A program made the position numbers and the translations under genes. Positions 14,086-24,410 of a DNA stretch of 64,000 nt are shown here, piece after piece. The stretch is from Polychytrium aggregatum (taxonomy: Eukaryota; Chytridiomycota; Chytridiomycetes; Polychytriales): contig NW_026516318.1 in NCBI RefSeq assembly GCF_025602895.1, forward strand, positions 78,644 through 142,643, in the 5' to 3' direction. The stretch's first letter is position 1. Every line of letters starts with the position of its first letter. The notes beneath the pieces are model-generated. The model ran no database searches, was not told the DNA's origin, and saw only the letters and a program-made list of their open reading frames with translations.

Positions 14086-17000
14086 TTACTCATCGACTGC
14101 TGTTCTTGCCTCTTCGAAGGCGGCTGTGATGGCTGGTCGAGCTTCGATGTATCTGGCAACCTCGGCTCGGATCTCTCGGGTGTTGAGGTAGATTGGCTGT
14201 GGTGGTAGGAGTGTTAGTTGAGGGACTGGAGGAGTGGTGACAGGTGGCTGGACTTACCAGGATGATGACCGGGCGGTGGGGTGTTTCACGGGTCAAAATA
14301 GCAACCCCGCCGGATGGAGTGAAGTCATGTTTGTCCCAATCACCAAAGAGGGAGTGTGGGACCTTGGTGATGTGGCTGCCATGGCGGATCCATTGGGGAG
14401 CGTTGTCTTCATCGATTTCGGTCCACAGGGATGATGCATGTGGGTCGGATGCGGTGGTAAAGTTGGAGGGATCCTCGTCGGATTGAACCCACTCGTCACC
14501 GCGACGGACCCAGAGGATTTGGTTGTTAAAACGGTCGCGAGACAGAATTGAGTTGCCATCAGATGAGATTGCCACGGAGGTCACATCCCTTGTGTGTCCC
14601 TCGAGGGTGTGCTTCACCTGGCCTGTGGTGGCATCCCACACCTTGATGGTATTGTTGTCACCAGAGCCAATAATTGACCCGGACCCAGAGACAATCCACT
14701 TGCCATCGGGTGAGATCGCCACGGAGGTCACACCCCATGTGTGTCCCTCGAGCGTGTGCTTCAGCTGGCCTGTGGTGGCATCCCACACCTTGATGGTCTT
14801 GTCCCAAGAGCCAGATACAATCCACTTGCCATCAGGTGAGATTGCCACAGAGTTCACTTGGCTCGAGTGGCCTGTGAGTGTCATCTCGCACGGATGCCAG
14901 GTGGGTGCTGGACCGGCCGTGACCAGGAACGGGATCTTGTCCTCGAGTTGGGTGGCATATGTCTTGTAGATCGCCGTCTCCTTCGGTGTGAATGCATACC
15001 CCGAGTTGTACACCTGTGGTGCACTCGCAATGATCGGGTCGGCAAATTCGCGGATGAATCGATACGTGTCCTTGACCAGTTCCTTCGTGGTGTCGTCGAC
15101 GATGGTGCTGGGTGCCTTGGCGATCACTCCTCGCAGCACAGCCAGTTGCTCGATGATCGGCTTGACCACATGTGTGAGCGACCCACACTCGAGCCAGTGG
15201 AACACATGGCTCGACATGAATTGGGTGAGAGACGGGGCCAATTCTTCGAAGGATTGTGTCTCAAAGGGATGGTCCAACTCGACACCATTGACCTTGGTAC
15301 CCTCAGTCAGATGGGTGACCCAGTGGGCGACGCTGTATCGCAGCGACGGTGTGATGGTTTTGTTAACCCTGTCCTCGAGGTCTGGGATCTTGTCGTGAAA
15401 GTCGAAGATCTCGCAGATGTTGATCACTGGCTCGTGCGAGAGGATCACATCGAGACATCCCTTGGCAAACACCGTGTGGAACGAGCTCGACACATGCCAT
15501 GGCTCATTCTTGGACTCGTCGCCGAGGAGATAGTCCGCCACCGACTTGTGGTTGAACTTGACCTCGCCATCGTCGGTGGATCCGTTGGCACCAGGAGCGA
15601 GAACCAAGTTGAGACTCCTCAGGCATTCGTGAACTATGCGGAGTGCATATCCCTCGGCCACGTTGCGGAAGAAGATCCCGGCAATCATATTGGGTGTGAG
15701 GATGGTCTGCGATGTGGCGATAGCCGAGATCACGGTGATCAGTTCGTCCTTACGACTCGACACGGAGTGGATCTTGGTGAATGTGATCCCGTAGAGCTGC
15801 TTGACATCAGTGGCGCTGTCGTTGATCTCCCTGATCTTGTCGAGTGTGATGGCTTCGCTCTTGGCCTGCTCCTTGAGCGTGTTAAGGATCAGGTTGATCC
15901 ACACGAATGTCTTGGATTTGTCATCGTCAGCCGAATCCTTGGTATCAGCTGGCTTTCCATGTTCATTCGACTGAGCCGGGTTGTGGAGGATGATCTCGAT
16001 GGCCTGATCTCTATCGACCTCGGTGAGTCCCTTGTGCTCGTTGGTGAGTCGGTGTCTGATGAATACCCTCAAGTCGGCGATATTCTCATCGCTCGAGGGC
16101 TCGATTGTTTTGGCATTCACTCCATGGAATGCTGCCTTGATGTCGTCCTCGGGACGAGATGTCAGCAGCAACTTGAGCCACGGACGGGTCTTGTTCAGCT
16201 CGACGAACCGCCAGGCAAGCAGACTGAGCAGCTGGTCGCGTGGAGAGCACTCGTCGAGTGCATCCACCAGGATCATCACCGATCCCTTGGGTCTGTATTT
16301 GCCGATGGCTTCGAGTGGATCGGCAATCACGGCCTTGAACAACTCGGGGATGGACATCTTGTCGAGACTGTCCTTGGAGTGGCCAGCATCGAGCAGCTTG
16401 CGGCCGATGGGGGCATACCACTGGCACAGGCCGTATGCGATCGTGCTCAGCACGGCCCGCGGATCGCTCTTGCGGGTGTCGTTGTACTTGAGGAACAGCG
16501 CCGACACCAGCTGGCTCTTGCTCCGGAGGAAGCTGGCCAGCTTGGCTGCGGCAACAGACTTGCCGACACCGGCAACGGCATTGACCCACAGGACAGTGTC
16601 GGCGGTGTCTTCGTTGACCCAGTGAGTGACTTGGTCGAACAGCCACTGGCGGGTACCCTCGACATACAGATCCTCAAGGTCGTGCTGGTCCTGGGTCGAG
16701 TCGACGGGATCGAGGAGGGATCGCAGGAGCGAGTCTTGTTCGGCGGTGAGGACGACACTGCCGCCCTGTGTGTACACATCGCCCTCCTTGGCGGCTGTAG
16801 AAGTCTTGGTGATAAGTTCTCGGATCTTGGGAACCAGCCTATCGAATAGAAAGAGTGTGAGATTGTATCAACAGGATAATATATAACATCGATGCCCATA
16901 CCTCTTGAGCGCGTTCTCATCAACGGCGTCGAGTGCCTGCAGCTTCATCAGCACGGCAAAGGTTTCGCGGATGGTCATTGGCTTGCCATCGAACAACGGG

Positions 17001-18277
17001 CTCTTCTCATGCATCGGAGGGTGATCAGGGAACTCTTTGACGGGTGGGAAGTACTTCTCTGCAGCCATTCCACCACCTTTTTTCTCCACAGGGGACCACA
17101 TGAGTATTGGCTGGATGGTAACGGGGTTGCCACTCTTCTCGCCATCCTTCATTCTCTTGAGAGCGTGCTGGATCTATAGACACAGTGGATGTGAGACTGC
17201 GGGTTTGAGAGAATGGTACCGAGCTGAACAACCGTACCTCGAGAAATTGATTATCGAGGACATCGTGGGCGGTAAAGGTTTTCTTGAGGCCGGCCTCGGA
17301 GAGAATCAAGACAATCAGGTTCGATTGGTAGAGACCATTGATGAAGCCTTGTTCCCAGTCGGCTGCGTCACAGAGGCACTGGTTGTCGAGATAGGGATGG
17401 AGAGCCATTTGGCCGTATGGAGCGACGGCAAGTGTTCCATGCAAGGCCGTTGCATTGTGTTTATCGCTATCAACACGATAACTTTGGTGTGACAAGTTAG
17501 ATGGTGCCACTGCCAGTGACGTGGGTGCGGACAAGTCACCCCGTACCTGATGAAAACATCGTGCTCTTTGTAGTGGCTTTGACACTTCCAATTTTCTGTG
17601 GGTGTGGCCGGGTTATAGTCGCTCGATTTGGTGCGACGTTTTGGTGGTGTATCCTCGGGCTTCGTTTGAGAATTAGTTCCTTTGGCAGTATCCTTGGTTG
17701 ATCGATGGGCTTTCAGTGCTTTTTGTAATTTGATAATAGTGCCGATTTTCAGTCCAATATCTTTCATCTGCGCTTCTTTTAGATCGAGGAGCTGTGGTAT
17801 AGAGGAGATGAGCTAATCAGAACAAAATGAATGCCAACGACGACTAGAAACCAACACTTACTAATTCGATAGAATTCAATCCGTTTTCGATGAAGCAATC
17901 TCTTTGCTCATTGAGGCCATATTTCTTCAGGAATTCATCAAATTCTTTAGACTCCTCTGTCAATTCGGTCTCTTCGTCTTCATTAGAGGTCCTAGCGGTT
18001 TTGGATTGACCATCCTTTGGTTCCTTGGTGTTAACTTGGGGGGTGTCATCTTTGGATCGAATGAGCGAGAGTCAGATCACATGACAAACCAATCCAATTC
18101 GAACCACACTGGATCCGTGGCTCGATCCAAGATCACTCCGATGACGGGGGTTCGATTCCCGACATCGCCATTTTACCGAGAAGTCGTCCTGGTTTATCTC
18201 CAATCCACGACCATTATTGTTCAGAATCGATTCAGCAATCAACGACACTGACCTGGTGCTTGTTTCTTCTGGTGCAG
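14086..18277 (-). CDS. SAM-TIR-NACHT-WD40 receptor (NLR/STAND type), main body; first exon split by a retrotransposon
   Basis: Predicted intracellular signalling NTPase of the STAND/NLR class. Minus-strand exons: first exon 24410-24354 continued at 18277-18253, then 18049-17862, 17791-17547, 17481-17238, 17173-16902, 16838-14258, 14196-14086. These total 3723 nt (1240 residues) and all phases agree. Domains: hydrophobic anchor (residues 4-20); acidic linker; SAM (about 61-119, ending MKDIGLKIGTIIKLQKAL); TIR (about 165-285) with HDVFI-SYRVDSD made across a splice, a mid-block DAADWEQGFINGLYQSN, VLILS, and a Glu at 253 in the position of the SARM1 catalytic Glu; NACHT with P-loop AVAGVGKS (431-438), Walker B ILVDALDE (535-540) and TSRPE (568-572); a helical region; three WD40-type repeats (about 997-1130) with near-identical PDGKWIVSGS and IKVWDATTG text; and a helical C-terminal tail in the last exon. 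TIR domains of this kind often cleave NAD+; activity here is inference. The element insertion separates the ATG and promoter from the rest, so a normal transcript is unlikely unless the element is spliced out or its LTR drives the gene. Confidence 0.85.
18131..18174 (+). other. tRNA-3'-half-like sequence with Pol III B box, in receptor intron 1
   Basis: Contains GGTTCGATTCC (B-box consensus) followed 19 nt later by TTTT. No pairing 5' acceptor half (GCGATGT-like) lies within tRNA distance upstream and the T-stem pairs poorly, so it looks like a tRNA relic or SINE-like fragment rather than a working tRNA. Confidence 0.3.
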
Positions 18278-18282
18278 CCACC

Positions 18283-23933: not shown

Positions 23934-23934
23934 G

Positions 23935-24353
23935 TGTAAGGAGTGAACAAGCGCAAGGACGAAGACCAAGTGCTTGGTATGAGCTTTATTAGCTTTTAGC
24001 CCCGAACACCAAAGAACAAGTTTTGTTCGAACTGGTGTTCAACATAGGCTCAGACATGCAGGGCTATTTATAGACCGGGAGAAGGTCGAGGGGCAAAAGT
24101 GGGCGAGAAGGGTGGAGCATCACAGAGAAGCGAGAAGGGGGTGCGAGAGTGGCTGGTGTGCAAGCGAGAGAGGCTTGGCACAGCCCGGGGACATGTGCCG
24201 AGCGGTGGGGGAGGCAGGAAACCAGTAGACGCGGGTGGCAACGGCGCGTGCTCATGCATGGGGGCAAACAAACACGTGGGGACTCATGATTGGTGCGGAG
24301 GGCGAGAGCATGCGGGACAATCTTATTGGTCCGTTGTGATGCTGGTCATCACA
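23935..24353 (-). repeat. 5' LTR of A1 (419 bp)
   Basis: TG...CA ends. TATAAATA on the minus strand at 24073-24064 and polyadenylation signal downstream. Essentially identical to the 3' LTR. Confidence 0.95.
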
Positions 24354-24410
24354 CCACCAGAGGGACAGCAGTCCAACGAGGGCTGATATGACGATGATCC
24401 TTTGGAGCAT
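24354..24410 (-). pseudogene. Severed 5' end of the SAM-TIR-NACHT-WD40 gene (ATG and membrane anchor)
   Basis: Begins with ATG at 24410 and encodes a hydrophobic segment (RIIVISALVGLLSLWW) followed, after the element, by HQKKQAP. After removing the element and one copy of CCACC, exon 1 is 82 nt and its phase fits exon 2. A single N-terminal helix with basic residues after it suggests a signal anchor, as for outer-mitochondrial or ER membranes. Confidence 0.75.

Follow-up and report, generated by a model that had tools for sequence, protein, structure and literature searches.

The 64,000-nucleotide stretch of the Polychytrium aggregatum genome analysed here (hereafter the window) carries on its minus strand a six-exon gene (14090-24410, ATG at 24410) that is interrupted in exon 1 by a long terminal repeat (LTR) retrotransposon. 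We give a probability of roughly 0.6 to the reading that this gene belongs to a large family of NOD-like receptors (NLRs) combining a hydrophobic N-terminal anchor, one or two SAM domains, a TIR domain like that of SARM1, a NACHT domain and WD40 repeats, and killing through a TIR that hydrolyses nicotinamide adenine dinucleotide (NAD+), that is, an NADase. SARM1 is the animal NAD+ hydrolase with the domain order ARM-SAM-SAM-TIR. The sequence itself shows which domains are present and in what order, that the gene is interrupted and has uninterrupted paralogues, that a Glu in the TIR is conserved and that certain residues of the WD40 repeats vary. The family most likely consists of membrane-anchored NLRs, for which we infer catalysis, anchoring and killing.

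Pfam matches on the spliced sequence placed SAM, TIR, NACHT and WD40 in that order, as the first-pass annotation had proposed for this strand. The SAM and TIR segments on which that proposal depended matched SAM_1 and TIR_2, and the family made both calls firmer. Taken on its own, the window gene gave marginal scores for these two domains, with SAM_1 at 24.6 bits on the excised piece and 20.3 bits in its 400-residue context (cut-off 23), and TIR_2 at E-values of 4e-4 to 9e-5 and 21-23 bits (cut-off 28). Among 17 family members, however, 16 matched SAM_2, 15 matched SAM_1 and all 17 matched TIR_2 at E ≤0.1 (best 1.3e-5), which shows that the weak scores of the single gene did not arise by chance. 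That the SAM and TIR calls reflect spurious resemblance of some unrelated N-terminal sequence, as the sub-threshold TIR_2 score would allow, is very improbable: besides the matches in all 17 members, PDB searches with the family profiles retrieved SARM1 TIRs as well as dozens of SAM structures, and the motifs VFISYR, LSE and the Glu are conserved in the family TIRs. Pfam scans of the N-terminal regions found SAM and TIR_2 and no HET domain (PF06985), nor was an ARM domain found in the N-terminal 400 residues of the window gene. The PF01582 profile, run exon by exon against the whole genome, gave no match.

Structure of the window gene

The features of the gene and of the inserted element are as follows, in the order of transcription.
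24354-24410, minus strand: 5' part of exon 1, with the ATG and the 19-residue hydrophobic anchor, read from the sequence
18283-24353, minus strand: Ty3/Gypsy LTR retrotransposon with chromodomain, 6,071 bp, in exon 1, recognized by its LTRs, target duplication and gag-pol
23935-24353, minus strand: 5' LTR of the element, by LTR comparison
18283-18701, minus strand: 3' LTR of the element, by LTR comparison
18253-18282, minus strand: 3' part of exon 1, beyond the element; in paralogue L031 it directly adjoins the anchor
18050-18252, minus strand: intron 1, 203 bp, GT-AG; of equal length in L031, L032 and L038
17862-18049, minus strand: exon 2, acidic linker and first half of the SAM domain (spliced reading, Pfam)
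17792-17861, minus strand: intron 2, within the SAM domain, which is intron-split in all 16 loci whose SAM was found by the scan
17547-17791, minus strand: exon 3, second half of the SAM domain, linker and first TIR strand (HDVFIS; spliced reading, Pfam)
17482-17546, minus strand: intron 3, GT-AG
17238-17481, minus strand: exon 4, TIR core; its final codon (17238-17240) is the Glu that aligns with Glu642 of SARM1
17174-17237, minus strand: intron 4, GT-AG
16902-17173, minus strand: exon 5, C-terminal part of the TIR and linker
16839-16901, minus strand: intron 5, GT-AG
14090-16838, minus strand: exon 6, NACHT, helical region, WD40, C-terminal tail and stop
16154-16657, minus strand: NACHT (NPHP3_N, 101.6 bits), with AVAGVGKS as Walker A and LVDALDE as Walker B
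14540-14890, minus strand: about three WD40 repeats (110.1 bits, three stretches; DNA repeats)

The gene had been drawn with six splice junctions and with its end at 14086. The end shifts slightly, since the stop codon lies at 14090-14092. For 18283-24353, the LTRs, the target duplication and the gag-pol frames rule out an ordinary long intron. The two LTRs are 419 bp each and differ at one position, a 5-bp target duplication (GGTGG) flanks the element, and its frames encode gag, reverse transcriptase, RNase H, integrase and a chromodomain, which are the hallmarks of a Ty3/Gypsy element. Element and gene share one orientation, and the near-identical LTRs mark the element as young and recently inserted. 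The anchor is consequently separated from the SAM exon by about 6.3 kb in the window. The hydrophobic start previously proposed is thus present behind the ATG at 24410 and is cut off from the SAM domain by the element.

The interruption raises the question of whether the locus is merely a pseudogene with no present function, which we consider likely and which is compatible with the family reading. The 6,071-bp insertion lies inside exon 1, the first in-frame Met past the element falls in the second half of the SAM domain, the WD40 repeats number about three, compared to 6-12 in six measured paralogues, and the assembly showed no second copy of the gene body that was both near-identical and uninterrupted. 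On the other side, the five GT-AG introns downstream of the element (203, 70, 65, 64 and 63 bp) and 1,241 codons remain open, and the element is young by its LTRs. The target duplication also supplies a GT, and the element end plus one target base an AG, so that splicing could formally remove the entire element as an intron, although the donor is poor and four of the five introns of the gene measure only 63-70 bp. The window copy is, from its sequence, probably disabled, and it is not to be presented as a working receptor, because the retrotransposon interrupts the gene and about three WD40 repeats are too few for a propeller. The domain order first proposed for this locus holds; the copy itself is interrupted, short of repeats and one member among many.

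The family in the genome

The genome (64.7 Mb, 418 contigs) is that of a flagellated fungus by its marker genes, since it carries a radial spoke gene at two places together with 13 matches to the fungal chitin synthase N-terminus and 11 to Fungal_trans (7 of these 11 on a single contig, C146). Many of its genes occur as near-identical pairs, suggesting that both haplotypes were assembled. A 201-residue TIR stretch matched 186 places in the genome, and the 150 of these that were listed resolved into at least 88 loci across 65 contigs. This is a minimum number of loci and not a gene count, as haplotype copies and possible fragments are included.

We fetched 20 of these loci for comparison. Four of them (L031, L032, L034 and L038) gave an uninterrupted anchor-SAM-SAM-TIR-NACHT-WD40 protein in a six-intron model without stops, with two tandem SAM domains in each. 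The 235-bp stretch carrying the anchor in the window was 99% identical to L031 and L032, 96% to L038 and 85% to L034. An intron-split SAM just upstream of the TIR was found by the scan in 16 of the 20 loci, with scores of at least 78 compared to 50 for the best reverse-strand control. The scan misplaced the SAM of L040, yet a SAM could be read in its gene model, making it the 17th locus; no SAM upstream of the TIR was found in L035, L036 and L041. Walker A was present in 19 of the 20 loci, L048 being the exception. Locus L047 aligned weakly past the TIR (score 941, versus 2,582-5,520 in the other 19), and a WD40 motif search found none in it. An intron-free TIR gene in L035 was considered and ruled out, as its long open frame begins within repeats, past the first half of the TIR.

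The anchor exon occurs at ten places in the genome, including the window. At eight of the nine others, the distance from anchor to SAM exon is 186-267 bases, and in L031 the two exons are joined across the plain 203-bp intron. The ninth (L040, on contig C101) has a SAM match 138 bases off, and the pair was not modelled as one gene. Only in the window are the two exons far apart. In each of the four intact proteins, the N-terminal 19-residue segment is the most hydrophobic one (mean hydropathy 1.8-2.4), and two or three basic residues follow it. This hydrophobic start would serve as a membrane anchor, and any choice of membrane is equally conjectural.

TIR and SAM domains compared with SARM1

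When a profile of the 17 family TIRs was compared with PDB sequences, 17 of the 22 hits at E ≤5 were SARM1 (E 4.5e-4 to 0.039). No TIR other than SARM1 was among these hits, and the five remaining ones look like noise. With SARM1 positions 561-648 aligned and residues counted along the chains, the conserved family Glu falls on SARM1 642. Among 25 distinct paralogue stretches, two of which come from the same locus on C101, 24 have this Glu, as does the window, which makes 25 of 26; L048 has Gln instead. The TIR dN/dS (ratio of nonsynonymous to synonymous substitution rates) was 0.08-0.20 in nine pairs, ratios that are rough since dS exceeded 1 in several of them. As judged from such comparisons, SAM, TIR and NACHT are under purifying selection. 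Contig searches for bacterial or viral relatives of the TIR were negative: the family TIR profile gave 163 pattern matches in a genome contig collection and 13 in a viral contig collection, none of them confirmed, and megablast of the SAM-TIR stretch against phages gave no match.

The SAM profile retrieved 44 PDB sequences at E ≤0.1, nearly all of them SAM domains, with those of Caskin and Eph receptors at the top (3e-10). Because the family SAMs match Eph and Caskin best and SARM1 weakly, the SAM-SAM-TIR order may have arisen by convergence, the domains having been combined independently and not inherited from SARM1.

The parallel with SARM1 drawn in the first-pass annotation is thus upheld, and it is stronger in the paralogues. 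A SAM directly precedes the TIR, it is tandem in four of the 20 fetched loci, the catalytic Glu is aligned, and SARM1 is the only solved TIR matched by the family profile. The differences are that SARM1 has two tandem SAMs before its TIR compared to one in the window gene, that NACHT and WD40 follow the TIR in the family, and that no ARM was found in L031, where a Pfam scan of the first 500 residues gave SAM, TIR and sub-threshold hits. In addition, the Trp before the Glu is Asn in the family, and the family SAMs are not specifically SARM1-like.

The Asn bears on an alternative with the same architecture, in which the TIR is a scaffold or adaptor: upon activation, SAM and TIR would assemble and recruit other TIR or SAM proteins. 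This is possible but rather unlikely. It would accommodate the Asn as well as the Gln of L048, and in the passages of PMC7075850 considered here, the Glu does not always accompany reported activity. The retention of the Glu in nearly all stretches and the finding that the only solved TIR relatives belong to an NADase argue for catalysis instead. The same passages describe the Glu as critical for NADase activity, and both the Glu and the Trp four residues before it as binding ligand in SARM1 (PMC7075850).

WD40 repeats and possible exchange between copies

The four intact paralogues have 8-12 WD40 repeats by motif count. Their 42-residue repeats are highly alike, with a mean identity of 84-87% within three genes. 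Among 37 repeats from five genes, 66% of the nonsynonymous differences fell at 5 of the 42 positions (5, 6, 8, 24 and 26), where the mean proportions of nonsynonymous (pN) and synonymous (pS) differences were 0.55 and 0.40, compared to 0.04 and 0.16 elsewhere, the five positions having been chosen from the same repeats and the pairwise counts not being independent. The pattern is support for selection on the sensor rather than a test of it. The variable pairs 6/8 and 24/26 flank the conserved V7 and D25, and their spacing equals that of codons 7/9 and 25/27 in the Podospora NWD repeats, which the part of PMC1805685 considered here reports as positively selected and lying on the interaction face. 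By analogy with that source, the variable positions here may lie on the surface. The few repeats of the window gene may be set beside het-e alleles with few repeats, which appear inactive according to the portion of PMC12881547 consulted. The C-terminal halves of L033 and L035 carry longer, diverged WD40 arrays in which the uniform 42-residue repeat is missing, and the family thus seems to contain two types of sensor.

Comparison of the window gene with L031 in 100-base bins revealed a mosaic. The first 400 bases were 90-100% identical; of the next eleven bins, covering the second half of the SAM, the linker and the TIR, ten were at 60-79% and one at 91%; the following 19 bins, through NACHT and the helical region, returned to 88-100%. 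Synonymous divergence follows the same pattern, at 0.14 for the 5' part, 0.73 for the TIR and 0.06 for NACHT. Two histories would account for this: an exchange of the SAM-TIR module, or homogenisation of its flanks between paralogues. In places the middle part is slightly closer to L033 than to L031, and no close donor was found for the SAM-TIR part of the window gene. Such a mosaic can explain why this gene has one SAM and its nearest relatives two.

Proposed mechanism and known systems

In the mechanism that we propose for intact members, the WD40 repeats would bind a variable self or non-self protein, whereupon NACHT would exchange nucleotide and oligomerise. The SAM domains could help stack the TIRs, as in SARM1, and the TIRs would cleave NAD+ or make an ADP-ribose signal, leading to the death of the cell or of a compartment. 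The receptor would be fixed to a membrane through its N-terminal helix, perhaps to the outer membrane of mitochondria, where SARM1 is located. Whether all these features define one large, fast-evolving repertoire, with anchored NLRs bearing a SARM1-type SAM-TIR NADase and a Podospora-type WD40 propeller and with SAM-TIR modules recombining between copies, is in our judgment evenly balanced.

Several observations weigh against the NADase-receptor reading. The anchor occurs at ten places against at least 88 TIR loci, so most members may be without it. The SARM1 match is modest, the SARM1 SAMs are matched weakly by the SAM profile (E 0.033), and Asn occupies the position of SARM1 Trp638, four residues before the Glu, so the chemistry may differ. 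Bacterial ThsB was matched weakly by 4 of the 17 family TIRs (PADLOC, best E 0.0017). The window gene itself has only one SAM and a TIR_2 score of at most 23.4, under the Pfam gathering score. Lastly, of the five variable WD40 positions, chosen from the same repeats, three (6, 8 and 24) have pN above pS, and the other two (5 and 26) do not.

The suggested kinship with fungal NACHT-WD40 receptors is borne out, and again more clearly in the paralogues, whose WD40 variability resembles that of HET-E. Both Walker motifs expected of fungal NACHT-WD40 STAND (signal transduction ATPases with numerous domains) proteins are present, and the conserved-yet-variable WD40 array is found in the paralogues, the window gene having only its short array. 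The HET-E, HET-D and HET-R (HNWD) proteins of Podospora share the effector-NACHT-WD40 order and near-identical WD40 repeats varying at paired positions. They differ in having a HET domain where the family has SAM-TIR, and the family has an N-terminal hydrophobic anchor and a flagellated fungal host. Plant TIR-NB-LRR proteins also have a TIR before a STAND switch, with NB-ARC and LRR in place of the NACHT and WD40 found here, and no plant TIR was among the PDB hits.

The sections of PMC9815663 and PMC10197012 considered here already describe fungal NLRs with a wide range of N-terminal domains, among them a small TIR group, TIR-NLRs of Chytridiomycota and SAM_Ste50p annotations. The TIR-NLRs of Chytridiomycota and the SEFIR/TIR-like N-termini of Pezizomycotina NLRs likewise place a TIR-type domain before the NLR switch; the relevant sections of PMC9815663 mention no SAM or anchor with them. 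The consulted part of a 2026 preprint on eukaryotic TIRs, based on a source with few fungi, reports almost no fungal TIRs, all from the single chytrid Rhizoclosmatium globosum, and an InterPro TIR clan count of none for fungi (PMC13142454). No description of anchor-SAM-TIR-NACHT-WD40 in fungi was found in the literature searched, a search outside of which lay subscription papers and most preprints.

A single flagellated fungus thus holds at least 88 TIR-matching loci, and among those fetched, 17 of 20 have a SAM before the TIR and 19 of 20 a NACHT Walker A. Two questions thereby become testable: do fungal NLRs kill by depleting NAD+, and do flagellated fungi possess repertoires for allorecognition or immunity comparable to those of filamentous fungi? 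If an anchored SAM-TIR NADase repertoire is indeed present, the design of an animal axon-death enzyme would be linked to fungal allorecognition or immunity.

Flanking sequences and minor features

Intron 1 is about three times as long as the other introns, and its plus strand contains a short motif resembling a tRNA T-arm, GGGTTCGATTCCC, which is perhaps the remnant of a tRNA-derived repeat. Rfam returned no significant match for this intron (18050-18252) and none reaching the gathering score in the whole window. Downstream of the gene, the 3' flank (12087-13895) shares 98% identity with part of contig C301 and 88-91% with C57 and C46; judging from these matches, a segmental duplication seems to include both the gene and its flank. 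Upstream, 26374-63408 contains much Ty3/Gypsy sequence in both orientations, with four scanned frames encoding reverse transcriptase and a fifth an integrase tail and chromodomain. The starts of the LTR family of the inserted element recur at 26373, 28582 and 40647.

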